From the NCBI GenBank assembly GCA_038049695.1, contig CP142455.1, positions 32,897,501 through 32,961,500 of the forward strand: a DNA stretch of 64,000 nt. The letters run 5' to 3'. Each line of letters starts with the position of its first letter. Position 1 is the first letter of the stretch. Made by a program: the position numbers and the translations under genes. This document shows positions 640 through 37,790 of this stretch, piece by piece. The stretch is from Cinnamomum chago. Lineage: Eukaryota; Streptophyta; Magnoliopsida; Laurales; Lauraceae. The notes below the pieces were generated by a model. It saw only the letters and a list, made by a program, of their open reading frames with translations. It searched no databases and had not been told where the DNA came from.

Positions 640-3361
640 TTGGTTTTTTCTTTTCCATCGTTTGCACGTAGTTCCTCTAGAACGAACAAAGGCAAAGAGC
701 CTGTTACTGATGCACCTCGCCGGTCTACCAGGTCTCCTAATGTGGTTGTACAGTAAGCTTGGGAGAAGGTCCAGTTTGTGGAGAGAAACTTGGAAGAGTG
801 TGACTCCCTTAACCGTGATGAGATGAGATAGCGATTGATCGCTCTCAAGGATGAGGAGTTTTACAAGATTATGGTAAGCAATCGTCCTTGGGTCATGGAC
901 GATCAGAGCATTGTGCCCAAGCCTACCTTTTTCTTTGGCGATACAGTCCCTGACGACCTGACATACTAAATGAGATGTTTTCAGTTCTCTTACACGGCAG
1001 ATGGTGAGGGGAGAGCTATTTCTACCCGGTCAACCTTTGATCGCACTGTCTCTATCATGAGTCTTTCTCCCACATGCCCCAAGAGGGAAGATCCTCTGAG
1101 CTGGGTGAAGAGGACTAATGTGATCAAGACCGGGGTTTTTGTTGGCGGCCCTTCTGGTTATGCAGAGAAGTCGCCTATCCGCATGAACATGTTGATGCCA
1201 GCCAGCGGCTACCAAGGTTCTGATCATCCATCAGTCGATTTGAGACCGTTGGGCCTTGGCATTTTTCAGGGTGACGACAGCAATTGGGTGAAGCCTTTTC
1301 GACTTCGTGGTCATTTCAGTGCTGACTCAAGCTGGGAGTCATGGACTGATCACATCCTGCAGGTTGGCGGGACCATTCTGAAGGAGGTCGAGATCTTTGA
1401 CGCGGTTCGCGCTTTTTGGTAGACCGTGGTTTTCTCCGATGAAGCCTTCATGGCCATGTTGGAGTCATTTTTTCCACAAACCAACACCTTCATTGTCACG
1501 AATGGTGAGATTGATTTTTCTTTGAAGGAATTGAGCGCCATCACTGGGCTGCCTGTCCTCGGCAAACTTTATGAGGAGTTTATGCCTATTGACAATGTCC
1601 TTGAGGAGCAGTCTAAGGAGTTCAAGCTTTTATACTTTCAGTTTGTCGCCTTCTATGGTTTTTTGAAGGAGAAGGAGGGCTCCAAAGTCAGGTCCAGTAG
1701 TTGGAGGAGTTTTGACTCCTTGTTCCCCAACATCTTTGACAGTAGAGAGTCTTTTGATAGCATGACCTAGGAGGCCAGAGCTAAGACTCCAGGTTCGAAG
1801 AAGACTTCTGTCACACGAGGAGACTTGAATGACTTCTTCATGAGCACAGATGCCATTTATTTTGACATTGTGTTGCGGAGGGATCTCGCTGTTTACCTCA
1901 CTTACTGGTTGAGTGAGGCTATTTTTGCTAGAGGAGATGGAACGCACATCAAGCTCGTATTGTATCTTTCCGGCTTGTCAGATGGCATTTGGACAGCGAC
2001 TTGCTTTGGTGCTTGCTCTTTACTCCTATCTATGTACCGAATTGCAGGTTGCTGCTTTCCTGGTTCGGCTTGGGCTCCCTATGAATAGGGTATTTTCTGC
2101 CCATATCTTTTATTCGTGGTATGTGTACCACTGTCCCGGCTTTCATTGATTAGGAGTTGCACAGGATGATGACCCTTTCATGATTTGATTGGCTAGAGGG
2201 ACAGCCGTTTCCGAATCTCTTTTGTCTGCCTGTTTGAGAATCCGACGATTCAGGGATGTCGAGATTGGGCAATCTTTAGTGAAGCTTTCTCCAGGTTTGC
2301 GGAAGAAGGCTTTTGATTTTGGTGTCTCCCGTGATTCCACTAGAGCGGGGTGGGGAAGACACTATTATTTGACAAACGCAGAAAAGATGTGGCTTTTCAA
2401 CATACGCATTGGTACAATGGCATACCGTAGACATCTGTTTGTTGATATCCAGCCGTATGTCCCCTCGCGTTTTGCGCTACAATTGGGCTTCTCTCAAGGT
2501 GTTGTTGGAGCGCCTTCGAGCATGGTGAAGCGTTTTGGAGGTTTGCACGATGGGAGGAATGCATGGACTTTTTATAGTGCAGAGGACACTACCACCATGA
2601 TTTCCTATCCTAAGTTGCCCACTTTCCGGACTGCTAGCTTTACGAAATAGTTCGTAGAGTGTTCTTTGGTGTACCGGTGGCTTTCCAAGAAAGAGTTCGA
2701 TGTGAAGCAATCTTCTGGGAAGGGTCTTGGCAAATCAGATGGAGTCCGACGAGAGGAAGTTCTGGCTTTCCTTTCTGGAGAGAAGCACAAGATAGGCTTT
2801 CTTGGTGAACAGAGCGTCATCAGATCAAGAGTTGTACAAAAGATACTTGGTGAGGTTTTGAAACAACTAGAGGAGGAGGAGGCTGAGATCGACGCTTGGA
2901 TGCAACTGAAATAAACGAAGGCTTCCTTGGAGTTTACTGGGAGGAGAAGAGCATCCGACGAGGAGTCAAGCGAAGGTCCTGACTTTGACGACGGGGCAGG
3001 TACTTCAAGCAAACCGACCCATAGAAGCAAGAGGAAAAGAGGGCAGCGCCGTAATAAGAGGCACGGAAACTCTCCTGATCCAGAAGTCCCTCTCACCATT
3101 GCTAAAGAGATGTCAGGGGACGCTAATGAGCCTCCGGAAAAGAGGAATCGAGAGGAAGAGACCCGTTAGTGAAGGTATGATTCCTCCTCTTTCTCTTTTC
3201 GTTGAGATTTTCTTGTTTTGATTTTCCTTCTCTCCCTTTTTAGTTGGAGATGATGATTTGGTGATACCTGAGGTTCTGGCTGATGAAGCAGTGACGGATC
3301 CGATTGTGGCATCTGAAGATGAACCGAGGGACTCTGAAGTGATTCCAGAATCTTCGCCCGG
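640..3361 (+). pseudogene. Decayed transposon-associated plant mobile domain (PMD) ORF
   Basis: Successive plus-strand frames give a protein resembling the aminotransferase-like plant mobile domain proteins found in MULE and Ty3/gypsy elements. A basic Ser/Thr/Pro-rich start (from about 660) is followed by the body (about 970-2,650) with blocks such as TNTFIVTNGEIDFSLKELSA and ITGLPV, and RAGWGRHYYLTNAEKMWLF. The C-terminal region is acidic, then Lys/Arg-rich (about 2,930-3,170). A short last exon, ending at a GT near 3,361, reads VGDDDLVIPEVLADEAV. The copy is broken at roughly half a dozen places. It lies just downstream of a MULE tail and may have belonged to that element or to an LTR element. 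PMD family recognition is fairly firm; the parent element is inference. Confidence 0.55.
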
Positions 3362-3419
3362 TATGACTTCTTTGTATTTTCTTTCTTTCTTTTTTGTATG
3401 TTTTGATTGAGAGGATGCA

Positions 3420-3888
3420 AGACCATCTGATGATATGGAAAATACCGAGGATCGTTGGTTTTGCCAACATCTCCTGGTCTTTTGGGCTCAAGTAAGGTGA
3501 GTTTACTGTTTGCTACGATAGCCTCAAAGATTTCTTCAACATCTTCATCGAACGGGTATTTCTTCTCTATTCGTTCTTTGACGGCTTCAGAGAGTTCATA
3601 TTTCTTACCTGCAGTTTTGTTTTCAACTTTCTTTGGCTGCTGAGGAGCTGACTTGGTATGCACATTAAGAACCTCATTTTTCTTTGGTTTTGAGGTCGTA
3701 ATGGTAATCAGCTCTTTCTTTGATGATTTCTGATTGTTGAGGTCTTTGATCACCGTTTCAGCTTCCATAGCTACTTCTAAGAGTTCTCCCAGGTTCTTTC
3801 GGATTAGAACATCCGAGGGAATATTGTGTTTTTGCCTGAATTCAGCAAGTCCCTCTGGATTGTTAATGAGGCCTTTCAAGTTCCCCAT
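3420..3888 (-). pseudogene. Ty3/gypsy gag-region fragment, inverted
   Basis: The minus strand reads from MGNLKGLINNPEGLAEFRQK through a Lys-rich linker into KKYPFDEDVEEIFEAIVANS, then LTLLEPKRPGDVG and NDPRYFPYHQMVLHPL. These last blocks are familiar from the gag/pre-protease region of plant Ty3/gypsy elements. Only about 155 residues are present, and the likeness stops near the 3' end of the mobile-domain ORF on the opposite strand, so this is an inserted fossil fragment. No protease, RT or integrase is adjacent. Age is not estimated because no LTR pair is visible. Confidence 0.55.
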
Positions 3889-7900: not shown

Positions 7901-9000
7901 CTCTTAAGAGCTTCAACACTCTTGCTTCCACTAATTGAGGTCACCACACAAGTACACCTCCAATCGCATACATAACTAATTTTTTGATACAACGGTTCGA
8001 TCGCAAAGATCTAATCCACTTTACAACTCAATTTACAAATTGAAACAAAAAACACTTGCCTCTTGGACTATGTCTTGAGGATGCACTTTGATGCTACTCC
8101 AAAGCTCCAAGATTTGACTCCTTGCTTGTTGCCTTGATGTTGATGATGCTCCATTGAGTGCTCAACCAAGAGGGTTTGGGAGTCTAAATCTAGGGTAATA
8201 AATGATTATGACTTGTGAGGCTTGAGGTTTACCCTAGAAAAGTGATTCCACTAATCACACTTAATTAGAGCTTTGAATGCTCTTAAGTATGCCTATTAGA
8301 AGCCTAAGTGTGAGTGGAATTGGATTTTGGGAGCTCTAATAAGGTATTACTATGAGGGCACTTAGTATTGGAAAAAAAGTCTCAAAATCACAAGAGTTAA
8401 GGCCATTGGAATGGGTTCTTGTATATATAGAACACTCTCCAACGGCTAGTCCACAGTTAGCCTTCAACCAATTACTGCTAACCGCCAAACCCCTAATGGC
8501 TAGTTTGACTGAGTCAAAAACAGGGGAAATGCTCTATGGTTGGCTTCATGACTAGCCGCAGGGGACTTATGGTGAGCCGTGAAGCTAACCGTAGTTCATT
8601 TATAGTGAAATATAAGATACTTTCTTTGTGACAGTGAGCTGACCATGGGGTCCTACAGTTAGCTGAACCCTTGCTCTATAATTAAGCTATTCCAAAGATC
8701 AACAACTAACCAATTTTAACCCTGTTGATTTAACCATTTGGTTTGAGGGTCCTAGGGGCCTTTTCTTGGTTTGTGTAGGGTCCAATTTACCTTAATAAGT
8801 TGGCACCAATTGGAGTTTCTTCCTTGATAAAATTCGGGCCTTCCAAGACTTGAATCTTCGCCTTCGACCTTGATCTTCCTTGTAGAGACTCATAGAGGCA
8901 AGATCTTGGACTATTGACAGGAATTGACAACGAAAGGGTAGTGCATATATGACTATGGCACTAACAAGATCCATACCCATGTTTAGCGGGTTTCAAACCA
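7901..9000. other. Probable LTR-retroelement remnant, right part
   Basis: The sequence continues that left of the hAT-like insertion. It includes a TATA-like box (GTATATATAGAAC, about 8,419) followed by several copies of a GGCTA(G/A)CCG-type motif at 8,440-8,610. The same motif family clusters in the Sirevirus-like LTR at 50.9-51.2 kb. No coding region, PBS or LTR pair was found. Confidence 0.3.
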
Positions 9001-12000
9001 TTTGGGTGAAAATCAGTCCCATAAATTTGCTATTAGTAGACTGTTTTATCCAGAAAGCTCCTTATTTCGACTATTCCCATTAATCAGAGGGCCTGGACTG
9101 GAAGCAAGGACTTGATTTGGACCCAAACAGAAGCTCCATATGCTCATGGCTCTTATGTGTTTCCATGTAAAACAAAACAAGCCCAGAAGTGTGTCTGTCC
9201 ATCCCAATAGGACCAAAAGAACAGCCCAACGGCTGTGTGTGCAAGATTGCACATGCACAAATCTTATGCAACTCCTCTCTTTGCCTTTGCTTTTTTAGAA
9301 AGGTAATAATGGCTAGGATCACTTATCATGTTTTCTTAATTGTTGATCAATAGTTTGGGTTGTATATGAGGTTTTCTTAAGTTGAAACTTCATATTAATT
9401 AACAATGAGAAAAGACAGCTGAAAGCCCTATTCTTTGCTGTGCCATGACGGTCTCTCCTCCGTTGATGAAGTTCTGCAACAGCCACTACTACAAGGTGAT
9501 TGAAGACAAGGAGAATTTTGTGGGATTTTGCACATCATGCCCTGGAATGGTTAAAATGGCCTCCTTTTATAGGCTTTTTGGTGGGCATAGGGGGTGTTTA
9601 TGGGCTTTACATGCATTAATGCTCCATAATGAGAGGAGTTACATATTTTTAATTTACGTTTTTGTAACTCCTTTTTCTTAAGTTTTGATTGGCTGGTGGA
9701 GGATAATGGGCCATTATTTGCATTTAACCTTCATGATGGGGGGGAGTTATATTGTTTAATACCACCCATGGCCCTCTCCATTGATCTTCATAGCTTAGAC
9801 ACGTCTCTTTAGCCCGTCTACTTGGTTTTTTTTTATTGAATGTAGGATCTCTTCTTGATCCTTATTCTCAAGAAATCTGAGGCTCGAGCCAAACCAAGAG
9901 AATAAAACACATCCACTATTATCATAAGAAGGATAGCCGCAAAGTCCAAACATGACTTGCAACTGTTAGTTTGTACGAGTCCTCACAATCTTCTAAGAAG
10001 TCAAATGCCCTTTTCTTTATTTTTATTGTATTTGTGTTCAAGTCTCGTCTTTTCTTTTGATGAGAGTTGTAAATCGCCTTTCATGGCACCAGAAAACCGC
10101 CTCTCACGGCAAACACAAAACCGCCTTTCACGCCAAAAACATCCCCTTTCATGGAAATCAAATGAAATTCGACCTTCACAGCATGCAAAATCCAAATTAT
10201 GTCTCTTTTTTGACATATGTGCAATAAAAGTTAGAAAAAAAAATTATTTTCTTCTCTACATGAAAAGGTTGATCTATGGATCACCGTTTGTTGTTTTCAA
10301 ATAGATTAGAAGATTACCATACCCGTACACAAAAGAAAAGGCGGTTGTTCGCTCGTCTCAAGTGACGAAAGGGTTAGACCCCATGGATTCTCACATCCGC
10401 TGACCTCGATAGTCCCGAAACGATCCACGAGCAAAGCTCATAGTCCTTTTCCAAAACACCCGAGGTTTATAGCAGTGAGATGTGAAATCCAAGTAGTTGT
10501 ATCCATCATAGTGATCTCAAGAGAAATTGAACTTTACCCTCCTTTCTCACGAGATGTGCTCTACCTTTTGAAATGGAACTGACTAAGGCAGTCAAAGGGT
10601 CGGGCCCAGGCCGGCCAAGCTAAGCCCTTACGCTACTCTCATATATGTGGATTGGACTTAAGTCAAGCCAAAGCCCTCAGCGGGCCTACAATACCAAAGC
10701 CCTTACCCTACCCTCAAAGGCTAGGGCTGGGCCATGGCTAAAAGGAAAGATGTATTAATATTATTATATAATAACCTTTCTATACTACAATGCTAACTCT
10801 GCTTTTTTCAAGCTAAGGACTGTGCCACTTCTAAAAGAATGCATGAAAAAAATTACTTTTTCCTCATAAAAAAACATTATTTAGGATTAAATGAACTAAG
10901 CTATTCTGATAGTATTGTGACATGAAATTAGTAGATGGAAGAAACTATTTAAGACCTTAGCACACTAGCAGTCACTACATAGTTTAAGTAATGTGCCCGG
11001 CTTTGTTTCTCGTCAGGCTAGTTATAGCATTTTTCATCTGTTTATGTACAACATTTTTTTTTATAAAGCTATAATATAGACTATTGGAGTCTGTTTGACA
11101 AGTCTCATCTGATTCAATTAGATTTATTAAAAGTAGGCATTAAACTTTTTCCAAATAAATTATTTATTATGTGTGGTTCAAATAGACATTAGACCACTCT
11201 TGAATTAGCATTAATTGAAACTTGTAATTCTTTGAAGCGTTACTATTAGACTTTATATCATAGCAATTAGACTTTGACTATCTAAGATGAATAATAAAGA
11301 AGATTTGATGCATTTGAACACGGCTTAGAGTCATAAACTTTAACTCCATATGTGGGGCCCACTTCAATGTAACAACAGTTATGGAAGTAAGAGGATAAAA
11401 GGAATTGGGATCGGTTGGTGGCTAGAGACTAAAAGCTCAACTCTACTCAATGATGATGTTGGTGAAAATTTAACTAAACTCTCAAACATCAACAGTTTAC
11501 ATTATAAGCAGTGAAAACCAATTTAATCAATGACAATAGCAATTTCCTTTTCATTGAAGAATATGTTCATGTTGCGCAAACCGAGAATGGCAACAATATT
11601 GTGATCTATGAGGATATCTATCAAAATATTTTACCAATATCTTGTTATTATTATTTGAAAAAATATTAGAATTTATCATTAATTGCTAATAAGAGGGGTT
11701 CTTTATAATTCTTTTGGTGGGAATTTCTATATATTATTATTATACATATTATTTATTTCATATATTAATAGAGAAAAGGCCAAGTCGGGCCCCCTCAGGC
11801 CAAGTGAATTTCAAAATTGGGCCCTACCCTACCTCGGGCTTTAGGAAAAGAAGAAAACCTATTGCTTTGCGGGTTGAGTCGGGCCGGCCCCCCTCTTCAA
11901 AGGGCCAAATTGAAAGCCCTAGAACCGACACATCATTTCTGGCCTTAGATATAATCCAACGGCTGGATGTTAAGTCGCACATGAAAAGGCAAAATACACA

Positions 12001-12932
12001 ACATGGGCATGTGATAACCTCCTTCTATATATATATATAATTTTTCTGTGGAAGAACATTTTGATTTTCTATTGGAGCGGTTGGGACTGAGAATTAGGAT
12101 TTCACTCTCTTACATGTTTGTATGGTCGTTTTTTTGATGAAAAGACATTCAAAAAGGAAAAAACTTTCACTTTTTAATGTAGCAGATTTTCTCTATGAAG
12201 AAAAATAGAAAAATGAACTAGTTTTTTTGTAATTCTGTAGAAAACTATTTTTATTAGAGGGGTGGGGGACTTGTTTTCCGCATAATGTGGAAATTTTTTT
12301 AAAGAAATTAATTTTATGAAGCGCTACAAGACACAAATTTTTGTTCCAACACAAGATTACAGGACTTCTCTCTCACATGGAAATAAAATTTTGCTTGGAC
12401 ACAGATACATATCCAAAGTAGAATGGAATCCTCCATTCCTCCCATCCCAAGGGCACATTTGGTAAAAGAGAGGAATCCTCTATACAAAGATTTCCTTTAT
12501 TCCTCCAGGAACCATGCTATCATCTGTAAGGATTTTTTTACGAGAAGAGTAACTGCATTCTAGGTTTGAGAAACGCCTAGGAGAAGTCACTCTTTGTAAG
12601 TTAGGTGCTTCTTTGCCTTTGTGGATTTACAAAATTCGATGGGGGGAGGTGGAGACTGAAAAATCAATGAAAGAGAGGAGTTTTGACAGGTTTGGAGTAT
12701 TCAAAAAATCCTCTCTCACTTTTCCTCTCTTCACTCAAACCTGAATTTTCCTCAGAATTAAGGGAAATCATAGATGATTCCTCTCGATGACATTACCAAA
12801 ACATGCCGAAGGAAATTGAAATCTTCTCTAGGGAGGAAAGTCTATTCATTTTCTACATTTACACAATGAAAATATTTCACACTAAACAGCAAAATAGATT
12901 GCAACATGTAAAACCAAAATAATTTTTCTATT
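9001..12932. other. No gene recognised; AT-rich intergenic sequence
   Basis: An ORF at 9,445-9,681 (starts MTVSPPLMKFCNSHYYKVIE) has a plausible composition but no family I know. GGAATCCTC-rich sequence with GGGCACATTTGGTAA near 12,454 resembles Tourist/Harbinger-type MITE termini, and related sequence recurs at about 22,089-22,330 and 57,370-57,490. An AT-rich core at 11,640-11,780 and a GGGCC-rich block at 11,780-11,900 carry no gene signal. Confidence 0.4.
10074..10165 (+). repeat. Short tandem repeat, about four units of 22-25 bp
   Basis: The motif CCGCCTTTCATGGCA...AAAA recurs with variants CCGCCTCTCACGG, CCGCCTTTCACGCC and CCCCTTTCATGG. Confidence 0.6.
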
Positions 12933-12954
12933 CACTACAACAATTTGCACTATT

Positions 12955-13360
12955 ACCGGCGTTTTTTCCCTGCGCAAGCATTAAACGCCGGGAAAAGTAT
13001 AACTTTTACCGGCGAAAAAGCTGTTTTCGCCGGGAAAAAACTGATTTTTTCCGGCGTCATATTATCGCCGGCAAAAGGCCGCTTTTTTCCGGCGATTTAT
13101 TTTTTTCGCCGGTAAAGTTCCTTTTTCCCGGTGATTTATTTTTTTCGCCGGCAAAGGTAATTACTTTTCCAGACATGGGTTAGTTTTTTGCCGGCGCATT
13201 TGTTTTTTTCGCCGGCAAAGTTATTACTTTTCCCGGCGTTCTACCCATTTCACCGGCAAATGTCCTCCGTTCGCGCCTTCAATTGGACCAGCGCGCGCTT
13301 ATTTGGGTTAGGTGTTTTATAATTAGTTTTCCCGGCGCAAATATTGCACCGGGATTGTTA
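12955..13360. repeat. Left subterminal repeats of the 9-kb CACTA
   Basis: About a dozen short motifs of the form TTTTCGCCGGCAAA, TTTCCCGGCG or TTACCGGCG occur in alternating orientation. Such arrays are the usual subterminal transposase-binding sites of CACTA elements. Confidence 0.8.
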
Positions 13361-13753
13361 TCATAAAACAACCCCTCTGCTTATACCCAAAGAAAACAAA
13401 AAAGGAGCCGTTCTGCATCTCCCTCCTGCATAAGCAAAAAATCGCAACTCCCTCATTTCAAACCCGTTCTGCATCTCCCTCCTCTCTCTGCATCTCCCTC
13501 CTCTCTCTGCATCTCGCCTCGTCCAGCCCATCTCGCAGAGCCTCACATCGCAAACTCATGATCATTCCGAAGCGAGTCATGGGTGAGGAGTGAGTCGTGG
13601 ACTCGGACGATTCGGACTCTCCTTTTTAACTCCTTGAAAAGGTCCAAAGGGCTTGCAAGAACAGAGAGAGTTCTGCAAAAAAAGAATAAACGCTTCCTCT
13701 TCATCTTCTCTGCCTTTCAACTTGTTTTTCTCTTTCTCATAGGAACTTCTCAC

Positions 13754-13938
13754 ATGGATTCTGTTGAAACTGTGATAGCTCAGATTCAAGGGCTTTCAGG
13801 CTCTGTTGGTGATATCATCCATCTCAATGCAGTCTTGAATCAGGCCGATGAGACTCTGCAATCCCAATCACAGCGATTGGGGCCTTTTCTCGAGCAGCTG
13901 GACCCATCCAAGCATTGCCTTGGATATCTCTATGTCTT
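13754..13938 (+). pseudogene. CSN3: Captured COP9 signalosome subunit 3 exon 1
   Basis: The reading starts at an ATG and gives MDSVETVIAQIQGLSGSVGD, with LGPFLEQLDPSKHCLGYLYV near its end. This matches the conserved N-terminus of plant CSN3 (MDSVEx(L/V)(V/I)xQIQGLSxS... and LDPSKHSLGYLYxL). In the host, CSN3 is a PCI-domain subunit of the complex that removes NEDD8 from cullins; only 61 codons plus two bases are here and the PCI domain is absent. The exon ends at a GT donor (13,939). Upstream, 13,600-13,753 looks like the 5' UTR with a pyrimidine-rich acceptor (CTCATAG) just before the ATG, so the capture probably includes leader sequence. Confidence 0.85.
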
Positions 13939-16731
13939 GTAATCTTCTATCCCCCTTGTTCCTTTTTGTATTATAAATCTGTGATTTCTTGCATCTGGGG
14001 TTGCTGCGTTTTTTTGCTTTACTTATTGTATTTGCGCTCTTATTGTTTATATTAGAAGTGGGGTTTGATTCATTGTTGAGTTTATGCTTTGTATAAGTCA
14101 CTTTTCTCGATTTGGGATGTTGGGTTTTGCTCGAATTTGGTTGTTTTTGCTTGTGGGTTTTGGTTGATTATTGTTTGTGTGAAGTTTGGCTATTGTTTTG
14201 TCCATTATGTGACTGGAACAATAGCCTGTTGTGGTATTTGTTCTTTTCTTGTTATATTGAGGTTTGGTTATTGTTTTGTCCATTACATCTCATAAACATC
14301 AGCCTCTTGCGTTATTTGCACTTTTCTTCTTATATTAGAATTGGGTTTTTTGCTCATTGCTGTTTTTATGGAGTATTTGGATATGGGTTGCTGGTTGTTT
14401 TTGCTGGTGGGTTTGATCAATGATTGTTGCTTTTTTGTCTGGTTTTTGTTTTGGTCATTACCTCTTTCACAAATTGGAGGTGGTTTTTTGTTCATTGTTG
14501 TTTCTATTGAGTCTGTGGATTGTACAGGTCCTTTTCTCAATTTGGGGTGGTTGGGTTTTGATTGAATTCGGTTGTTTTTACTTGTGGGTTTTGCTCAATT
14601 ACTTGCATCCAGGTGAAAAAGGCCAAGACCAACTTCCCTTTTTATTGTTTTGTATCTTGTAATGAGAATGTTGTTTTTGGAATTAGCAGAGTTTTTTTGG
14701 TGCATCTTTTTAGTGTGTTGGGGTTTATTAGGTGTTATAAGAAATCATGGTCTCCATGGTGGGACGAGCCTGTGAAAGGAGATCGTGAGCATGTAGTGCC
14801 CGAATGTTATTACACTAAACAACCACCTCAGCTGCATGTATGTTTTCATGACTGAATGAAACCTTTTGCTTTGAGTTTTATTATCTTTTGAGTCCTAACT
14901 CTGTTGTTGTGCCTGTAGCAAGGGTATTTTGCGAAGTTTCAGCTTGCAACCCTGTTTTATATCTTTTACAGGTAGAGTTCTTTGTTTCTTACATTAACTT
15001 TGCTGCACTCATCATCCTCAATGAATTAATTTTAGTACCTCCAACTGTAATCTTCTTTTTCTTCCCAGCATGCCAAAGGATGAGGCTCAACTTTATGCTA
15101 CTATTGAACTGTAAGTGCTTTTTTCACTCTCTCATATCCCCCAAGTCTGTTGACCATGAACAGCCCTTTAAAAGTCTGTTAGCACTAATGAAAAATGCTA
15201 AACAGGTTTCTAAATGCATGTTAGCTTATTCCCATTTATGTTTTGTAACCATGTTAAATACGAAGTTGCGGTTATATCATATCATGAGGCCTTTAGTTTG
15301 TTTCAAGTATCATATCTGTAGCAAGCCCATGGAGCACAATGGTGTCATTTTCCCTCCTCCATACAAACCTCAGGGGATTAAGATGCTATACAATGGACAT
15401 CCAGTTGATTTAACTCCAGAACAAGAAGAGGTGATGCTGAATATCTTTTATGATCTTGTACCATTTTCACTATTTCTTTTCACTTCTTGTCATGTGATTC
15501 TTGTTGCTTCCACTTGTCACATTGCATGTGGCCCGTTGCCCTTGATAAATACATTTTATTCTTTACCTGCTGTTTTGATTTACTATTTTTTTTTTTTTGT
15601 ATCTGCTGAAAGTATTAGTTCTGCAGGTAGCTACAATGTTTGCAGTGATGAAAGAAACGGAATATGCAACAAAGCAGAAATTTATTGACAACTTCATGAA
15701 TGACTGGAAAGTGCTACTTGGCCGAAACCATGTGATTAAGAAATTTGAGCTCTGTGATTTTACCCCAATCTATGAGTGGCATGAGAGGGAGAAGGAAAAG
15801 AAAAAGCAAATGAGCACCGAGGTAAATCAAGGTTTCCTTTAATTGATTTTAGATTAGAGTAAAACAGGGAGCTGTACAGTGTAAATTGATACATATGGAA
15901 CTGGTGTATGTGAACAATGAACATTAGTTTAATGATATTGACTTGTTTTATGTCTTAGTGAAAAATAGATGTTTGTCTATGATACCTGGATACTTCAAAA
16001 TTGGGAACGTATCCATATCATGTTGTCTCCCATACTTAAGATTTACATGTTAAATTTATGCCTAATAGCATCCATTGGAGTATCTTGTCTTTTGATAGGT
16101 AATATTAATAGAGATTTTGATTGAATTCTGAATTTTGGTAGGTACTACATTTTTGATATCTCTTACTTCCTCCAAGTATATTTGATATCTCTTACTTCCT
16201 GTTTTGGGAGCATGTAAAATTCTCCAAGTTTCCAGGGTTTTAATTCCTGTTTTGGGAGGCTACTTTCCCTTACCACCTATTCCTTACTCCGCCTGAGGTT
16301 TCCTTGTTTCCTTCTTTTGTTTTGGCCTGATCCTAGGCTGTGGGATATCAGGGCCGTGGGAAATTCACTCCTTGCTGTTGCTCCCTGTTTTGTATCATTG
16401 GTTTCTTTGGCTGCCCAATCTGTGGACTTATTGCTGGCTTGGCTTGTGGGTATTTGCACTTGAACAAAATATATTCCAGTTGTGCCCCTCTAGGGAAGCT
16501 TGCATCAACAAACCAGGCCTCATTCATTTATATTTATATTTTTTATTTTTCATTTTAATTCCCTTTTAAGCTCTATATTATGCTTTTATAATTCATAAAA
16601 GAAATCCATTTTGTATGACTTTCAGGTTAGGGGTGATATAGCAAGGTCATTGATGTACATGGCAGTCCGCTATGGTTTCTATCAACCTGGTGGTAGCCCC
16701 CACCTGCAACTCTCTAATTCACCAAGCATTG
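13754..16731 (+). CDS. Predicted chimeric gene CSN3::NOT2::TOP1::endonuclease I (join of seven exons)
   Basis: The predicted exons are 13754-13938, 14732-14837, 14919-14971, 15069-15110, 15322-15430, 15627-15821 and 16626-16731. Every intron begins GT and ends AG, and the phases agree at every junction (2, 0, 2, 2, 0, 0), including those between unrelated donor genes. The ATG is the original CSN3 start. The product would be about 266 residues: the CSN3 N-terminus, part of the NOT2 domain, the start of the TOP1 DNA-binding core, and one endonuclease exon. The last exon ends in phase 1; splicing onto the CPN60B exon at 17,265 would give a stop one codon later. I infer no function. No truncated piece keeps an active site: TOP1 lacks its catalytic tyrosine and the endonuclease exon lacks the rest of its domain. 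Expression is unproven. A shared exon phase could arise by chance at any single junction, but the whole chain is striking. Confidence 0.45.
13939..14731. other. Intron-like T-rich spacer with internal repeats
   Basis: No exon was recognised. A block of about 65 bp near 14,108 (TCGATTTGGGATGTTGGGTT...TTGCTTGTGGG) recurs at about 14,537. GAAGTTTGGCTATTGTTTTG at 14,181 recurs as GAGGTTTGGTTATTGTTTTG at 14,259. The region therefore grew by local duplication. The several small ORFs over it are chance. Confidence 0.6.
14732..15110 (+). pseudogene. Captured NOT2/VIP2 exons (CCR4-NOT complex)
   Basis: There are three exons. 14,732-14,837 gives SPWWDEPVKGDREHVVPECY then YTKQPPQLH. 14,919-14,971 gives QGYFAKFQLATLFYIFY. 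15,069-15,110 gives SMPKDEAQLYATIEL. Together they match the region leading into the C-terminal NOT box of plant NOT2/VIP2, where YxKFQxxTLFYIFYSMPKDEAQLYAANEL is conserved. In the family NOT2 links the NOT module of the CCR4-NOT mRNA deadenylase complex. All introns are GT-AG. The final exon stops before the rest of the NOT box. The first acceptor is chosen at 14,730-14,731 because it keeps the reading open. Confidence 0.8.
15322..15821 (+). pseudogene. TOP1: Captured DNA topoisomerase I exons
   Basis: Exon 15,322-15,430 reads KPMEHNGVIFPPPYKPQGIK then MLYNGHPVDLTPEQEE. Exon 15,627-15,821 reads VATMFAVMKETEYATKQKFI, then LLGRNHVIKKFELCDFTPIY and EWHEREKEKKKQM. This is the highly conserved start of the eukaryotic TOP1 core (HNGVxFPPPYxPxGVKMxYxGxxVxLxPEQEEVATMFA... 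FxPIYxWHxxxKEKKK). Both borders are canonical (GCAG acceptor at 15,621-15,626; GTAAAT donor at 15,822). The catalytic tyrosine region lies far downstream in the parent gene and is absent. Phases at both ends fit the NOT2 exon before and the endonuclease exon after. Confidence 0.88.
15822..16625. other. Intron-like spacer, no exon recognised
   Basis: T-rich sequence between the TOP1 and endonuclease exons. It holds a short direct repeat near 16,155-16,200 (TTTGATATCTCTTACTTCCT twice) and ends with a good acceptor (TTTCAG). The small ORF at 16,340 has no recognisable family. Confidence 0.5.
16626..16731 (+). pseudogene. Captured exon of a plant endonuclease I-family protein
   Basis: The exon reads VRGDIARSLMYMAVRYGFYQ then PGGSPHLQLSNSPSI, between a TTTCAG acceptor and a GTAAGT donor. 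RGDIARSxMYMAVxYGFxQPGGxPHLxLSDSPSIE is the hallmark of plant proteins of the bacterial endonuclease I type (Endonuclease_1 family). Only this exon is present; an upstream exon of the same kind of gene is found in the other CACTA element at 48,296. Confidence 0.8.
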
Positions 16732-17264
16732 GTAAGTTGTAAAAACTTTGAAATAGTATATGTAAGTCACTATTTTAAGCAATTTGCAAAAGTTTATCTT
16801 GGCCATGGGTTAAAGTGAATAATAGTAAAGGGTTCTGTAAATGGTACGTTTTGTGATGTACCATGTGCATGCTTGTGTGCGTATAAAGCAATTGCAAAAG
16901 GTAATAATTTCCATAAATGTGTCTTGTTTCTAATCAAATGTGGCCACATATAGGAGGGCACAAACAGCCACGAGGAAGTGAACCAGTGAATAGCCTGATT
17001 AAGGGAAGTGGGGCCATTTGTGAGAGGGAGGGAGACCTATTTCTCTTGATTATCATACATATGTTATTTTTTTGAAAAAAAATGAACTGTTGCTTTGTGT
17101 TAGCTTCATGCGTTTTCTTTGTATGGTAAGTCTAGCTTCTTAGTGAATGAAGTATGAATGACACTGGTTGGTGTAATTAATGGAGTAATGATGAAGAAAT
17201 TGATGTCTTGATGGATCATGTTATGTTACTACTGAAGGCTGTTTGAAATCCAATTGTTTCTTAG

Positions 17265-17615
17265 GTTGAATTGGAGGACCCTGTTGAGAACATTGGTGCT
17301 AAGTTGGTGAGACAAGCTGCAGCAAAGACCAATGACTTGGCTGGGGATGGCACTACTACTTCTGTTGTTCTTGCGCAAGGTCTGATTACTGAAGGTGTTA
17401 AGGTCTGTGATATATTTCTCTTCCATGATTGTTGCTGAACCTGAGGAGTATTTGTTTCCCCTCTTTTTTTTTGAGAAATTCCAGCATTTTTGTACTAATT
17501 AAAGCCAATGATCTGTCAGGTGATTGCAGCGGGTGCAAACCCTGTTCAGATCACTCGTGGCATTGAGAAAACCACCAAAGCTCTGGTGGCTGAGTTGAAG
17601 TTGATGTCCAAAGAG
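17265..17615 (+). pseudogene. CPN60B: Captured plastid chaperonin-60 beta exons
   Basis: Exon 17,265-17,402 (46 codons) reads [40 protein letters not shown] and ITEGVK. After a GT-AG intron, exon 17,520-17,615 (32 codons) reads [20 protein letters not shown] then [12 protein letters not shown]. This is group I chaperonin with the GDGTTT ATP-binding motif, and [17 protein letters not shown] is diagnostic of the beta rather than the alpha plastid subunit. The host protein folds RuBisCO large subunit and other stromal proteins. Both exons are phase 0 at both ends and open, but the endonuclease exon upstream ends in phase 1, so this pair is out of phase with the chimeric chain unless another exon lies between. 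Confidence 0.9.
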
Positions 17616-20600
17616 GTAAGTTGAATGCACATACATTTTTTTGGCCCGGACGATTGTTTACTCGTGTAGCTGCAACTTAAATTGATTCTGATGGATGTTA
17701 GCGTACTTTCAAGATTTAAGTACAAAAAAAATGTTTATCTGCATCTGGTTGGGCTTAAAACTGTCCTTGGTAGGTGTGGCAATGAGCTGGATCCTGGCCT
17801 GGCCTCTGTAAGCTAACTCTTTGGCTTAAGGTCCTAAAATTCAAACCTGGATATGTCCCTGAGGTGTGAAAGGTAGGCTGAAGATCAACCTTTTATAACT
17901 GTTGATATGCCTGGATTCAGGGTTGGATAGAGAATTTTGCCAAGCATAGGTCTGTATTCTCTTTTGTTAAGCTGGAAAATTAGGTCCAAGTGGGGCCTGA
18001 GTCCAGCGATTGACATGTTATGTATGGAAGCCGTGCCAACCTGATCCTGTGCCTGTAGTGTTATGCGCTCTGTTTGCTTTCATTAGTTCATTGACATCTT
18101 GACGCAGGCAATTGAAAGCCCTAGCCCTAATTAAATAGAAAACCAAAATTCCAGCCCTAAACCTAATCAACAGTAAACAATGCAAGAAAACGAGGAGATA
18201 AACTATGTTTTTGAGCTTTCTTGTTGGTTCTGAATCAACACTCAAAACCTACAAGGATGATAACAAAAACAAAATATATAAATTTGAAAAACTTACATAT
18301 AGAATCATACTTAGATGAAGGAAGGTAGTGTGATGATTATTTATTTGTGATGGCTTAATGAACCTATTCTAATGGCTCACATGGCATGTTGGTGGACCAA
18401 ATGGAGGGTTTGGATTGGACATCTATCAAAAAAAGAAAAAAAATCCCTTTCTGGGTTTGCTATTCATGGCTTTGATGTTAGCCCCTGGGTACTCATTATG
18501 GAAAGAGACCCAGGGGTATGAAAAGTATCACCTCCATCGACCAACCTCTGTTTCTCTCTGTTTCTGTCTCTCTCTCTGTTTGTAGATGTGCTGTTTATTT
18601 AGTTAGTTTTCTGTATGCTTTCATGGTTGGTGGTTAGTTAGTCAGATGTTATGTTATTATAATTCTTCAATAGAATCAGTGTGGTATCTACTGTTCATCA
18701 TATTCCAAACTGAACCATGCTTGATACAGCACATAAGAGAAATGATTTGGCTTCACTGACTAAAATACGCATTCTGAAGTTTACTTCTGAGAATGCCCGC
18801 AGTGTTGAATAGATCGGGCAGTTAGAATTCAGTGAAAAGATTCTGCAACGTTGTCAGCTGTTCCAGGATATGCATCTGAACTTGTTCCCCCAGGGGTGAA
18901 CCCAAAATTCTCAAGTGGGTTTTCGGAGCAGACTCGAGATTTTTCATTTGGATTTACTCCCACAATACGGAACTACTTCTAAATAACTAAATGCCTGTTT
19001 GTTGTTAGTTTTGTTTCATGATTGTATTTCTATGGGTGGATGGCTTGTGCAGCTTTTTCAAGGCTTTGAATCCCCAACTGTGCATAGAAAGTCCACATGT
19101 GGCAGATAGCTCTTTGCTTGGACTTCCCTTGTCTGCTTAGAGTGGCCCACAAACCCAATTTGAAAGGCTGAATCAAGGTCATCATACAGTGACTGCATTT
19201 GGTACATCACCTGAAGATAGATGTTTATGGTTGGGCTTTTACATGTTTTCTTTTTTTAGCTTCTGTTTTTTCTTTAATAGGGCACTACTACTATACTCTA
19301 GTCTAGATCTATATAGCATCTTGGTTTGTTTGTGAGAGATGCATACAAGCTTGTAGTGTTACTGCATAAGGCTGTGAAAGTTTTGGACTTATTTACTAGT
19401 TTGTGGGTGGTTTCTTTGTAGTGTATGCAACTGTAGTTGGACACTTGTGACAAAAGAATGTATTGTGTTTTAACTGATCCTATACGCCATATGATGTTTT
19501 AGTTGAATACATTGGCTTCATATGATGAAAGATAGCATTGTGAACTTGGACACCGGACAATATATCTATTTACTTAAAACTGTTTCTCCTTTAAATTCTA
19601 AACCCTTGAAGCTATCTTCAATTTTGTCTAGTCATACAAATTATGCTAAATCATTTTTTTTCATTGTTTACGCTAACAGATTCTGAGAGAACTCGCCTGT
19701 AAAAGAAATTCTTGGCCTTTGATATCAGTCCTCATGTAGTGGTTTCTTATTGGGCCAACAACAACTGATTCTTCTGAAGGTAACATGTGTATTTGCTTAC
19801 TTTTCTGTGGGTTAGTCTCTTTTGATTCTTGGTTTGCAATCAGATGTAATGGATCGAGCACCCTGCAAATGCATAATTTTCCTAATGATGTGATTGGCAA
19901 TGCCACTCACAGGTCACACCCACTTTATGCTTCCACTCAATAACGTGCATGTTCTTTTAAAATCTGTGACAACAAATATAGAATTGCATGCAAAGCTAGG
20001 CATAAATCAATACAAAATGTCTATCCACAGTGCCTCGGGGAAATGGTAATGCAATGGAGAGACTGGGGACTTGTATTTTATGTGTCTTGTGGCAATATCA
20101 CATCGTGTCAACAGGTGATGTGTTTAGTGACATATCTTCTTACATGTGGTTGAAAGAACTTATCTTTACCACTTGTTACTTGCCTTCTGGAAGGTCCAAG
20201 TGGCAGGTATACTTCCACATAAATATTATCATTATGTACTTTTTCCTCATGGCCTTGAAGCACATGGGTGCGTTTTGTATTCTGATGTTATAGTCAGTTC
20301 ATGCATGTTGGGGCTTATGGAGTTATTGTAAGCCGATGCAAAAGACCTATGCAAAAGATAAATCTTTACATATTTTTGACCAATACATGTATTGAAAGAT
20401 GAAAGTTTCATGTGATTATCACAAGAGAACAAATGTTCCAGCCCTTTCTCTTTTTTTTCTTCTCTGTTTGAAACTGTTTCCTGAGTCATGTATCTAAGAA
20501 AGTGGAACTTGTTGCATATGAACATAAAGCTTGTAGCCTTATACAAGAGCTTTACTTCCGTGAATTATGTTCCATTTTTGTGATGATGTTTCTTAAAGTT

Positions 20601-20806
20601 GTACTCTTGTGCTACCTGGACACACTAATATGGGCAATTTAGCAATATGAATTACTTCATGCCACAAACAGCACATTCCCAATGCCTAGGTGGGTAGCTT
20701 AGGTTGTATTGATAAGCTTAGAGCTTTATAATAGGTTGTATTCATGTCAACCAGATGGTTGTTTGTATATGTCTATTGCAGTATTAATTTTTTTTTTTAC
20801 ATTCAG
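17616..20806. other. CACTA interior, no exon recognised
   Basis: About 3.2 kb of T-rich intron-like sequence. Possible acceptors at about 19,679 and 20,034 lead into short open stretches that I cannot assign. Given the exons on both sides, more captured exons may be hidden here. Confidence 0.4.
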
Positions 20807-20887
20807 ATATCACCAACTGAGATTCGTGGGGCACTTGGATCTGTCAATCGGCTTTTTATCAGCATTGGAATTCCATGGGGCAATTGA
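20807..20887 (+). pseudogene. Captured plastidic glucose transporter exon
   Basis: After a TTCAG acceptor the reading is ISPTEIRGALGSVNRLFISI then GIPWGN and a TGA. (A/E)ISPTEIRGALGSVNQLFICIGIL is typical of the plastidic glucose transporter (pGlcT, major facilitator superfamily); it covers the PxxxRG loop motif and the start of a membrane helix. The match decays after GI, so the capture edge or local mutation is near 20,872. As phase 0, it could serve as a terminal exon after the CPN60B exons. Confidence 0.7.
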
Positions 20888-21069
20888 AGAAAGTTTTTTG
20901 TTGAAAGATTCCATGCAACGAAGATGCAGTGAACATGAAGGAAAAATGGATGCACAGTAGCAGATTAACATATGTTAAAATAGGATGTATGAAGTTTTTT
21001 TGAACAATGTTGCAGGTGTTGGATTGGTGCAACAATGAGATGATTGTATATGAAGATGTAATTTTTCAT

Positions 21070-21190
21070 TGGCATTTGAATGTTGGCAAATAGTAGAATG
21101 TTAGCATTGATTTTTATTTTGTAATGGTAATGGTAAAGTACTTTTAATATTGTAAGGATATTTGAATATTAATATGAATTGGAATGAATA
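21070..21190 (+). repeat. 3' block shared with the 27.9-kb CACTA
   Basis: About 120 bp, including GATTTTTATTTTGTAATGG and GTAAGGATATTTGAATATTA, aligns with 47,350-47,470 in the other CACTA element with scattered differences. The position relative to the 3' end suggests a transposon 3' UTR. Confidence 0.8.
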
Positions 21191-21299
21191 TTTGGAATAG
21201 ATAGATGTTGGGTGTGTAGGAGATTTTGTCTTAGATACTAGAATAGTAGTTTCATGCGATACAGGTTGGAAGCTGCAATGATGCATATACAGGAAAATT

Positions 21300-21960
21300 G
21301 TCGGCGCAACATTTTCGCCGGCAAAACACCTTCAAAATAATTACTTAAAAAAATAAATGTTTTCCCGGCGACAAAATACGCCGGCAAAAAATTTTGGAAA
21401 ATTAATTTTCATAAAAATAAATGTTTTGCCGGCGCAAAAAAACGCCGGCAATAAATTTTGAAAAAAATCCACAAAATATAAATGTTTTGCCGGCGCAAAA
21501 AAAACGCCGGCAATAATTTTTGAAAAAAATTCCATAAAATATAAATGTTTTGCCGGAGCAAAAAAAACGCCGGCAATAAATTTTGAAAAAAAATTCCATA
21601 AAATATAAATGTTTTGCCGGCGCAAAAAAAACACCGGCAATAAATTAAAAAAAAAATCCATAAAATATAAATGTTTTGCCGGCGCAAAAAAACGCCGGCA
21701 AAAGTTTTTAAATCAATTTATTCTTGAAAAATAAAGGCCTTTTCCCGGCGTTTGATACGTCTTTTCCCGGCGAATAAAAACGCCGTTAATGTATTATTTT
21801 TCCCGGCGCTAACCTTTTTTCGCCGGTAAAAGCTATTGCTGGCGACCTTTTACCGGCGTATTGCCGGCGCAAGGAAAATCGCCGGCAAAGGTGTTCACCG
21901 ACGTTTTATAGACTTTTGCCGGCGCTTTTGTAGCGCCGGCAAAAGTGCAATTTCTTGTAG
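21300..21960. repeat. Right subterminal repeats of the 9-kb CACTA, with a hairpin array
   Basis: Between 21,341 and 21,715 a unit of about 61 bp repeats five to six times. Each has TTTTGCCGGCGC, an A-tract and ACGCCGGCAA, which form an inverted repeat, then a TAAATTTTGAAAAAAAT(C)CATAAAATATAAATG-like spacer. From 21,740 to 21,960 shorter CCGGCG motifs continue to the TIR. The long minus-strand ORFs here are translations of the repeat. Confidence 0.85.
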
Positions 21961-21962
21961 TG

Positions 21963-22589
21963 ATTCTATCATGAGACCCTTTTATTGTAAAATCACACCC
22001 TTGAGGACTTATTTGTGTTGCGGTAGATTCCATGATCCACGAATTTCTGTTTTCACAAAGATAGGAACATCCCATCCCCCACCCTATGATTTAGGGCACG
22101 TTTGTGTCCATGCCGCGAAATACCAATTCTGTCAAAATCCACACGTTTGGTAACGAGAGAGGAATCCTCTATTCAGGGGAATCTTTGTTTCCGTGGAATT
22201 AGACTTTTTTATGTGAGGATTTATGAGGGAGAGGATTCATCGCATTCCACGTTTGGAGGAGCACAAAGGAATCAACAATGATTCCTTCCAACCAAGTTTG
22301 GTAACGGGAGAGGAATCCTCAAAAAAAAAAAATCTTTATCTGATTATCTCCATCTCAAATTCATTCAACATAATCAAAAAAATATTTCACATCCTCTAAA
22401 ACATAATAAAAACACATTTTCTACACATGAAATAACTTAAGAAATCTTTGACAGAGTCTCCCCTTCGTAAGGTTTTAGAGAGTTAGCTAATTCATTGGCT
22501 ATGGACAAAACCAGGGTTCTTAAAGATGTAATTTTATTTTGAATGGACTGCTCGAAATTGTCAACAAAAAAGAACATGCGTTCTGGGAA
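21963..22589. other. Flank of the CACTA element; MITE-like GGAATCCTC sequence
   Basis: No gene. GGGCACGTTTGTGTCCATGC at about 22,089 and two GGTAACG(A/G)GAGAGGAATCCTC stretches (22,149 and 22,301) relate this to 12,454 and to 57,410-57,490. It ends in a poly-A tract at 22,321 and AT-rich sequence. Confidence 0.4.
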
Positions 22590-25783: not shown

Positions 25784-27268
25784 TTGGTTCTTCTTCTTTT
25801 GCTACTATTTTATAAGTGGGTCTTTTTATCTCCTTTTTTTCCTGTTTAATTTTTAGGTTGTAAAGATGAGACATTGGAGTTCTTTTTTCGCAATTTTGGG
25901 TCATGGACCTTTTTTTTTTTCATTTCTCTCCTAACCATCTAGTCTTTTTGTTAGTTCTATCTCAATTTCAAAATGGTTGTTTCTTTCTTTCCTTTTTTTT
26001 TATTTTTATTTTTGGATTCTTGCTGATGGGACTTATGGTTATGGTTATGGTTATGTTTTTTTTTCCCTAACTTGTATAATTTGTTTGGCTTGTTAGCTCT
26101 ACTCAGTATTTTCATTCCAGGAAGAAGCTTTATGTGCCTCTTTGACAGTGTAGTTTCTGTTGACTGTCAATGTTTCTCAATCTGTTTTAACCTGTTACGT
26201 TTGGGCGTTTGGGCGTTTGGTTATTTGGGTTTTATGGTATGGGATTTTGGTTGGCACTGTAGGTGTTTTGTAAGGGGGCTAGCCGCCAGACCCACGGTCA
26301 GCTTTCCAGGAAGCCTATTCTCTCAGGATGATTTTCAGCACGTCCTGCGGCTAACCGCCAGTCCACCTACGGCTAGCCGCAGTGCTAACCGTTGGAGTTC
26401 GGTATGATTTCCAGAGACAAATTTTTTAGAACACCCTCTTGCGATGACCCCTGCAGTTGCCTCACGGCTAGCCCCCAACTATTCCTGCGGCTAGCCGTGA
26501 GCCAACCTGATTCAATTTTCTGAGAGGTAGACGTCGTGGATGGGGTGTGTTGGTGTTTTGTTTATTTCGGTTTTCACTTTTTGGTTGGTGCTGGTGTTTG
26601 TTTTGTTGGTTTTTGTTTGTTTTGGTTTGGGAAGAGGGTTTTGGAAGATGGTTTTTTTTTTCTTGGCCACAGGGGAGCATTTGAGCTAGTTTTTATCCTC
26701 AAATGCACAATTTACAGTAAGTGGGACATGAATAGTCACTTCAACGCACAATTATATCTCTGCACAATTATTGAGCTAGTTGTTATTCGTGACAAACCCA
26801 ACTTATTGAATAGTTCATTGGGGCCGTGCAATTGTCATCAAATTTTGTGTGCAGCTGCATTACTCTTCTCAGGCATTTGTTTGTCATTAGATCTTTTTAT
26901 TTCATCTTATTAATGTCAGACATTTTTTTTCTGTGGATTATCTACATTACTCTTCTCTGTGGGTTAATTTTTTTAAATATTTGTATCTAGTTTAATTGTG
27001 AATTTTTGAACTTGGTTGCTTTTGTATTGTTGTTTGGTGAATCTCTGTCCATGGATTTATTTCTACAAATCTTCAGCCAATCTGAAAGCTTTGCCCGAAC
27101 GAGAATAACCAAGGTTGGAAACAAGAATATTTAGTTCGTTTGGTGCACACCAACCCAGGTCTCTCTCACATTAATTGGTTGTACATTAATTGGTTGTAAT
27201 ATTAGCATTATATGGCAATGACTTTCTGATTATTGCTTGTCTGTATCATTTTATTGGGCTATTCAGAA
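25784..27268. other. CACTA interior between captured exon and transposase
   Basis: No gene seen. A GGCTAGCCG-motif block at 26,270-26,520 is listed separately; the remainder is T-rich, with a likely transposase leader just before 27,269. Confidence 0.4.
26270..26520 (+). repeat. GGCTAGCCG-motif block, homologous to part of the LTR at 50.9-51.1 kb
   Basis: The order of motifs (GGGGCTAGCCGCCAGACC, CCTGCGGCTAACCGCCAGT, GCCTCACGGCTAGCC, TGCGGCTAGCCGTGAGC) is the same as at about 50,888-51,125, with linking sequence also alike. This is therefore a Sirevirus-like LTR fragment inside the CACTA. Confidence 0.7.
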
Positions 27269-36100: not shown

Positions 36101-37790
36101 GACCTCAACAACCGGCAGAGGTGATGGATGGAGTACATCAAGGATTACGACTTCCCTATCAAATACCATCCTGGTAAGGCGAACGTCGTAGCAGATGCTT
36201 TGAGCAGGAAGACCGCCCTCGTCAGTTTTCTAGCAGCAGAGGGTGTGTGGACCGACGTCTTCAGCAGCTTAGATGTTCAGTTTCAGCCGTTCAGCGAGAG
36301 AGTCTTACTTTCTACCATGTCCGCATGGGAACCAGAGTTGCTAGGAAAGGTCAAGGACAGTCAACGCAACGATCCCAAGCTTGTCTAAGTGATCGAGAAG
36401 ATTGACCAGAGGCCAGAGTTCAGATTGATTGGTGGAGTGCTCTACTACCAAGACAGATTGTGCGTGCCGGATATTCAGGAGCTGAAGGACGTGATCTTAG
36501 CAGATGCACACCATAGCAGATACTCGATTCACCCCGGCAGCACCAAGATGTACCAGAACCTAAGGAGCTACTACTAGTGGAACAACATGAAAAAGGAGAT
36601 AGCACGCTACGTCTCAAGGTGTTTGACGTGTCAGCAGATCAAGGTCGAACACCAGAAGCCGCCAGGACTACTTCATCAGCTCGATATACCTCAGTGGAAG
36701 TGGGAGCATATCACCATGGACTTCATTGCAGGACTCCCAGCCACCAGGAGACGCCACGACGGCATTTGGGTGATTGTGGATCGACTGACTAAGTCAGCCC
36801 ACTTCTTGCCAGTTTCGATGAAGGCAGGACTCGACGTCCTTGCTAAGTTGTACGTGGACAGGATTGTCTCTTTGCACGGAGTTCCAGCTTCGATTGCTTC
36901 GGATAGAGACCCGCGATTCACTTCTCATTTCTGGGAGAGTCTACAGCAGGCCTTGGGCACCAAGTTGAGTTTCAGCACGGCTTATCATCCTCAGACAGAC
37001 GGGCAGACCGAGCGTACCAACCAGACACTAGAGGACATGTTGAGAGCATGTGTCTTGGACTTCAAGGAGAATTAGGAGGATTCCTTGCCGCTTTGCGAGT
37101 TTGCCTACAACAACAGCTACCATTCGAGCATCAAGATGGCACTGTTCGAGGCTCTGTACGGGAGGAGATGCAAGACCCCAGTCTGTTGGGAAGAAGTTGG
37201 TGTCAGGAGTTTTCATGGACCATCCTTAGTCAGCGACACCAGCGAGAATGTTCGGTAGATAGTCGAGAACCTGAAGGTCAGCCGCAGCCGACAGAAGAGA
37301 TATGCAGACAACGGCCGCAGACCTCTCGAGTTCGAAAAGGGAGACAGAGTTTTCCTGAAGGTTTTCCCAGCCAGAGGTACCCTTAGGTTTGGAGAGAAGG
37401 GTAAGCTAGCGCGGAGATATGTCGGACCGTTCGAGATCAGGTCGAGAGTTGGAGATGTTGCCTACAAGCTTCAGCTACCCCCAGAGCTTTCAGGAGTGCA
37501 TGATGTATTCCACGTCTCTATACTGAAGAAGTACGTGGAGGACCCTACACACATTCTTCATCATCAGCCACTCAACATCCAGCCAGACGCTTCATACGTC
37601 GCCAAGCCAGTTGCGATCATCGACACCAAGGAGCAGCAGGTGCTCCAGACTCGAACCATTCATTGGGTGAAGGTTCAGTGGGAGCATCACACTCCGAAAG
37701 AGGCTACATGGGAGCTATGCGACCAAGTGGAGAAGGACTATCACATCTTCAAGCTCAGGTATGATCTAACTTTGTTTTTACATTTGGGGA
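33177..37790 (+). pseudogene. Chromovirus gag-pol, fossil
   Basis: Parts in order: gag from about 33,177 with a CCHC knuckle (CYDCGEQGHISRFC, about 34,067); aspartic protease ([13 protein letters not shown], about 34,425); reverse transcriptase (about 34,970-35,590, with FIDDVLVYS); RNase H (about 35,830-36,200, with [10 protein letters not shown]); integrase (about 36,480-37,300, HHCC finger then [13 protein letters not shown]); and a C-terminal chromodomain (about 37,600-37,770, VQWEHHTPKEATWE). Domain order RT-RH-INT is Ty3/gypsy, and the chromodomain marks a chromovirus. The region is broken in about seven places. Confidence 0.92.

Follow-up and report, generated by a model that had tools for sequence, protein, structure and literature searches.

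Has a DNA transposon in Cinnamomum chago assembled a new gene, or does it carry an open path through fragments of unrelated genes that arose by accident? The question is raised by a non-autonomous transposon of the CACTA type, 9,030 bp long, that lies complete at 12933-21962 of the window (the whole stretch of 64,000 nucleotides that was analysed), and in which pieces of the host genes CSN3, NOT2 and TOP1 and of an Endonuclease_1-family gene can be joined conceptually into one long reading frame. An earlier note on this DNA had taken the arrangement for an in-frame chimeric gene. Its observation that the four pieces, CSN3 with its ATG, follow each other on one strand inside a CACTA element is borne out by Pfam matches and by the CACTA ends, and the predicted join from CSN3 to the endonuclease, for which about 266 open codons had been claimed, is open for 265 codons as computed. 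Nevertheless, the evidence does not support a dedicated fusion gene, and with a probability of about 0.9 the element is a multi-fragment Pack-CACTA like Tgm-Express1 of soybean, whose 265-codon open join is accidental.

The junctions of the open join

The conceptual join consists of seven exons, 13754-13938/14732-14837/14919-14971/15069-15110/15322-15430/15627-15821/16626-16731, together 796 nt. For all four fragments in it a parent gene was located in the same genome (1.06 Gb in 14 contigs), on C1 for CSN3, C7 for NOT2, C3 for TOP1 and C8 for the endonuclease, so that each predicted border can be compared with that of its parent. The segments and exons are as follows:

13537-14619, + strand: CSN3 segment comprising exon 1, the 217 bp 5' of its ATG and a part of intron 1
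13754-13938, + strand: CSN3 exon 1 with the ATG and a GT donor, ending in phase 2; against the parent no nonsynonymous and one synonymous difference
14614-15312, + strand: NOT2-bearing segment, 97.6-98.4% identical to L055, in which parental NOT2 is recognisable only from about 14720
14732-14837, + strand: predicted NOT2 exon a, with an acceptor that is no splice border in the parent, where the exon begins 235 nt further upstream
14919-14971, + strand: NOT2 exon b, with parental borders
15069-15110, + strand: NOT2 exon c, with parental borders, ending in phase 2
15315-16154, + strand: TOP1 segment, lacking about 820 bp of exon sequence at 15329/15330
15322-15430, + strand: predicted TOP1 exon a, whose acceptor is parental coding sequence for S-V-A-S-P and no splice site
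15627-15821, + strand: TOP1 exon b, ending in phase 0
16443-16805, + strand: Endonuclease_1 segment, 95.9% identical to L062 (C8:68426001-68429000)
16626-16731, + strand: Endonuclease_1 exon with parental acceptor, entered in phase 0 and left in phase 1, contiguous in the avocado protein P0078

At the CSN3-NOT2 junction, the parental NOT2 exon (C7) measures 432 nt and begins after TTTTTCTCAG (an acceptor inferred from the open frame); position 14732 lies well inside this exon, which reads straight across the alleged acceptor AG at 14730-14731, placed within the parental codons for L-L-G-V. All 19 alignments of this exon with the NOT2 proteins listed cross the spot, which shows it to be ordinary NOT2 coding sequence. 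CYKKSW, the six residues with which the NOT2 part opens, comes from NOT2 bases out of frame; a 91-bp deletion within the exon at about 14750 then restores the native frame. As the same deletion is found in a NOT2 piece at C10:45.01 Mb, where it stands behind another CACTA left end, the NOT2 piece was probably derived from another transposon.

The NOT2-TOP1 junction has a similar history. Its AG at 15320-15321 lies in TCT GTA GCA AGC, which is coding sequence of a long TOP1 exon that in the parent spans S-V-A-S-P ... L-G-H-N-G, and the element joins GTAGCAAGCCCA to the HNG part. The in-exon loss just 3' of the alleged acceptor amounts to 820 bp by alignment (821 by motif), with the frame restored further on; 15315-15329 and 15330-16154 align to 1808-1822 and 2643-3463, respectively, of the reversed parental stretch L061. 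The 15-bp piece at 15315-15329 has an E value of 0.16 when taken alone, but it is exact and occurs also in L056 (C8:323.8 kb), where the same TOP1 scar adjoins CPN60 and the endonuclease exon is missing. Among the TOP1 protein matches listed, 14 of 63 alignments cross the spot, while 49 do not extend over it. Only at the TOP1-endonuclease junction is the acceptor genuine, parental and in phase 0, as seen both at C8:68.427 Mb and in P0078.

Of the statement that every predicted intron is bordered by GT and AG with matching phase, the first half thus holds throughout, whereas parental borders in matching phase join different genes at one junction out of three, which is no more than simple chance would give (about one in three). 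Misread borders in parent alignments had been named beforehand as what would speak against the chimeric gene, and such borders were found at both CSN3-NOT2 and NOT2-TOP1. The argument that a frame kept at three junctions is improbable fails as well, since there is one real phase match and since AGs giving an open native frame are available for all donor phases. In a scan with a minimum intron of 60 bp, in which splice-site strength was not scored and some AGs would trim the homologous part, the interval from the CSN3 donor to where NOT2 exon a ends offers 28 AGs, the NOT2-TOP1 interval 15 and the TOP1-endonuclease interval 30, and 4, 3 and 2 of these, respectively, yield an open join in the native frame. 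Across all possible phases of the upstream donor there are 4-7 such AGs for NOT2, 3-7 for TOP1 and 2-3 for the endonuclease. The phase match carries little information because it is chosen among several in-frame AGs that exist for any donor phase. A continuation of the join from the endonuclease into CPN60 would stop the frame at once (G|GT TGA).

The parents themselves are clearly recognisable as genes. The CSN3 parent (L014, C1:4993238-5003138) has later exons matching PF22788 and shares only 13537-14619 with the element, at 97.4% identity across 1089 alignment columns. The NOT2 parent lies in L057, with its next exon in L058 beginning G|TAC (phase 2), and the donor of exon c reads GTATGT in the parent vs GTAAGT in the element. 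The TOP1 parent (L061) has an open stretch of 483 aa and catalytic-domain exons further on, and is 98.4% identical to the element over 825 columns; the endonuclease parent L062 has a C-terminal exon matching PF04231. Two other places were considered as the source of the NOT2 piece and rejected. At C10:45.01 Mb the following NOT2 exon was not found in L055, L059 and L060, and the NOT2 segment there stands behind a CACTA left end at C10:45008196 (L060); a NOT2 paralogue at C6:63.46 Mb is without a DNA match to the element. The C10 piece has a short inverted-repeat insertion; in L055 (C10:45009001-45013500), at about 1948-2172, this appears as an insertion of about 225 bp within the NOT2 piece that resembles a miniature inverted-repeat transposable element, with inverted ends (CAACACCAAAAACAGGAAATTGGAACG...).

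The element, its copies and the question of constraint

The captured pieces stand within an element of complete outline, the remaining features of which are:

12930-12932, no strand: left target-site duplication (TSD), ATT, identical to 21963-21965
12933-21962, + strand: whole non-autonomous CACTA element, 9030 bp, with left end CACTACAACAATTTGCACTATTACCGGCG
12933-13360, + strand: left terminal and subterminal region with CCGGCG repeats
17265-17402, + strand: CPN60-beta-like exon fragment 1; entry from the endonuclease exon gives GGT TGA, a stop
17520-17615, + strand: CPN60-beta-like exon fragment 2
20807-20872, + strand: sugar-transporter-like exon fragment (ISPTEIRGALGSVNRLFISIGI), PF00083 with E 8.8e-4 and 18.7 bits, below the cut-off of 22.3
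20954-21962, + strand: right end with subterminal repeats and right terminal inverted repeat (TIR), of which 20954-21290 is common to sister copies
21963-21965, no strand: right TSD, ATT, pairing with the left ATT

The right end reads ...TTGTAGTG, and CACTA-type termini together with CCGGCG subterminal repeats are present at both sides. TSDs of CACTA elements are short, as a rule 3 bp, and this is also the length in both copies with established ends, ATT in the window and TAT in a second complete copy on C6, which measures 12,018 bp. With at most 2 mismatches, the left end was matched 268 times genome-wide, 136 times forward and 132 times reverse, vs 0 matches of a reversed-pattern control. 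In the list of open reading frames (ORFs) no transposase ORF of at least 150 aa lies inside 12933-21962, though short remnants may be present; the sole ORF of that length is a TTG-started run across the NOT2 and TOP1 introns. The element thus has what characterises a Pack-CACTA, namely captured host coding DNA, no transposase ORF of its own of that size, and several copies with differing flanks.

Six Pfam families are represented on the + strand: COP9_hel_rpt (CSN3), NOT2_3_5_C, Topoisom_I_N, Endonuclease_1, Cpn60_TCP1 and Sugar_tr. The CSN3, Endonuclease_1 and Sugar_tr pieces fall under the curated Pfam cut-offs when scored separately, and the sugar-transporter assignment is accordingly weak. 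The fragments are partial domains, with COP9_hel_rpt covered at 4-51 of 232, NOT2_3_5_C at 4-71 of 126 and Topoisom_I_N at 5-122 of 213. The best protein matches among those listed come from avocado (95% over 62 aa for the CSN3 piece, 100% over 35 aa for the endonuclease piece).

A 301-bp probe of CSN3 exon 1 found nine places in the genome (11 matches, 10 of 10 candidates scored), which are eight copies of the element, including those of the window and of C4:41.3 Mb, and the place at C1:4.99 Mb, which was ruled out as a copy because it is the CSN3 parent gene. The first 5.0-5.3 kb are common to all eight, and further right there are at least three arrangements, one in the window, one in L009 and L010, and one in L011, L012, L013, L015 and L016. 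Over 13939-18202 the copies are pairwise 99.1-99.8% identical; variation is higher at the 5' end, with 49 variable sites among 800 in 12933-13753, and the left flanks differ among the six sister copies compared. Exact right ends were established for the window's own copy and for L011, in L013 only the right repeats. Two sister copies were analysed up to their right ends, and both have 20954-21290 at 96-97% identity; 18203-20953 has no match of note in the sister copies examined, five of them taken without their right ends.

The predicted structure is undisturbed in three of the eight copies, that of the window, L013 and L015. In L010 there is a stop at Q40 and NOT2 exon a is duplicated, as it is in L009; L011 has a 1-bp insertion (+1) in the endonuclease exon; and in the C4:41.3-Mb copy (L016, L017) CSN3 exon 1 is interrupted by an insertion of about 3 kb. 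Coding variants among the eight copies comprise 12 nonsynonymous, 6 synonymous and 1 stop, where the proportions expected without constraint are 0.70-0.74, 0.21-0.26 and 0.04-0.05, and exonic sites (19 of 796 variable) and intronic sites (51 of 2182) vary alike. Among the eight copies there is no sign of purifying selection on the fusion frame, with the limited power that 19 coding variants give. In the comparison of window and parent, differences in exon and non-exon sequence number 1/183 and 18/897 for CSN3, 10/179 and 22/384 for NOT2, 4/294 and 5/527 for TOP1, and 1/105 and 11/255 for the endonuclease.

Several points weigh against the view of an accidental join. The seven-exon join is open in four of the eight copies, those undisturbed and L009, in the latter only if one of the two NOT2 exons a is skipped, and in L012, where 141 columns spanning the exon-1 donor are duplicated, the join could open via the first of two CSN3 donors. 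Every recognised fragment lies on one strand. The copies may be too young, and 19 variants too few, for selection to show, and the low exon divergence of CSN3 and the endonuclease could be read as constraint, though the counts are small and the constraint on the parent alone can produce it. Finally, the join is known from genomic sequence, and one specific fusion mRNA is possible.

Proposed fragment exchange and rival explanations

The wider family gives the picture of elements that trade captured fragments, as far as the sequences suggest. The whole join has at least 159 matches in the genome (144 of 317 candidates scored), many of which are TOP1 exon b in dozens of places, and the first CPN60 exon is found in 22 places at 85-98% (52 matches, 61 of 61 candidates scored), eight of which are the copies described. 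Combinations recur at C5:31.358-31.360 Mb (TOP1-endonuclease-CPN60) and at C8:19.888 Mb (TOP1-CPN60). None of the other genes has been taken up and multiplied nearly as much as TOP1, exon pieces of which, catalytic-domain exons among them, stand in dozens of places, several with stop codons. At 19620-20269 the window has pieces that adjoin TOP1 fragments elsewhere (L033, L056), and this part of the right half may be derived from another TOP1-bearing element. The longer sister copies (L013 and L065, about 8800-9800) show glutathione peroxidase-like exons, recognised by eye only.

In the explanation preferred here, the left half of the element would have been built stepwise by capture of intron-containing genomic pieces of unrelated host genes, pieces would have been exchanged with CACTA elements elsewhere in this genome, and the element then multiplied to at least eight copies, presumably with a transposase supplied in trans. 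The open join would then be a by-product of exons that retain their own frames, of gaps that are mostly intron, and of AGs so common that an open GT-AG path exists whatever the phases. Since CSN3 was captured with 217 bp 5' of its ATG, some expression of the element is possible; if transcribed, it would be expected to give transcripts of mixed kinds, spliced in alternative ways and for the most part truncated or non-coding, and not one dedicated fusion mRNA.

Among the alternatives, it is improbable that the fragments act as regulators, with transcripts or small interfering RNAs (siRNAs) that act in trans to lower or tune the expression of CSN3, NOT2, TOP1 or CPN60, or that attract methylation to the parent genes. 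The long, near-identical parental stretches, introns included, would suit such a role (the CSN3 and TOP1 identities given above), and a conflict over captured donor genes involving siRNAs is described in a review of 2026 (PMC13317346), but all recognised captured pieces share one orientation, and the fragments themselves offer no evident source of a hairpin.

Still less credence can be given to a real chimeric protein-coding gene that is transcribed from the promoter-proximal CSN3 piece, spliced as predicted, translated and under selection. The captured ATG with its upstream sequence, the consistent GT-AG borders and the half of the copies with an open join would fit such a gene. However, two of its acceptors are not splice sites in the parents, the copies are without sign of constraint, three of eight are broken (L010, L011, L016) and two of eight have the duplicated NOT2 exon a, the pieces are partial domains, and no fusion of two parents' pieces occurs among the 120 proteins listed out of 197 matches, for which homologue candidates were only proteins of 0.55-1.75 times the query length. 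Very unlikely, too, is that a CACTA exchange pool reorders CSN3, NOT2, TOP1, endonuclease and CPN60 pieces and that at least one CSN3-led copy is transcribed into a fusion protein titrating the COP9 signalosome or another parental complex.

Outside the element, but near it, a broken tnp2-type transposase (Transposase_21, Transpos_assoc) is found at 27233-29329 of the window, the ends of which were not found, and a DUF4216 domain at 42427-43035. Both possibly belong to one larger CACTA element that is split by a Gypsy-type retroelement, as 34328-36124 between them encodes protease, reverse transcriptase and RNase H, and its long terminal repeats are suggested by pattern matches near 29.5-30.2 and 38.0-38.7 kb, which lie about 8,495 bp from each other.

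Known systems and meaning

The closest known system appears to be Tgm-Express1 of the soybean wp allele (Zabala and Vodkin 2007, PMC1947982), a CACTA element described there as containing pieces, both exon and intron, of five host genes unrelated to each other. From its alternatively spliced cDNAs, with many exon combinations, chimeric open frames were predicted in that work; the longest, of 418 aa, takes in two F3H exons of the host gene. Transcription of Tgm-Express1 is proven and begins at the promoter of F3H, the gene into which it is inserted (PMC1947982), whereas the Cinnamomum element, known from genomic sequence, has pieces of about six genes, eight copies and a captured piece 5' of the CSN3 ATG. 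Like the Pack-CACTA and Pack-TYPE elements that Gisby and Catoni (2022, PMC8903248) describe for Arabidopsis, rice and maize, it is a non-autonomous TIR element with coding DNA from several loci. The same account proposes fusion of neighbouring elements as a route of Pack-TYPE capture and gives maize Pack-CACTA as containing the most distinct loci. The TSD is 5 nt in its rice and maize CACTA sets vs 3 bp here, and in length the present element far exceeds the examples illustrated there (PMC8903248). Pack-MULEs and maize Helitrons also capture fragments from multiple genes, and give chimeric transcripts, but belong to other transposon classes (PMC1947982, PMC13317346).

An open "chimeric gene" is easily read from a fragment-bearing transposon, and alignment with the parents from the same genome settles such cases. 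If the fusion were expressed after all, a DNA transposon would here be at an early stage of shuffling exons. In either case, a multi-copy Pack-CACTA family that is young, and whose parents and break points are known, is useful for dating captures and for testing the trade in fragments.

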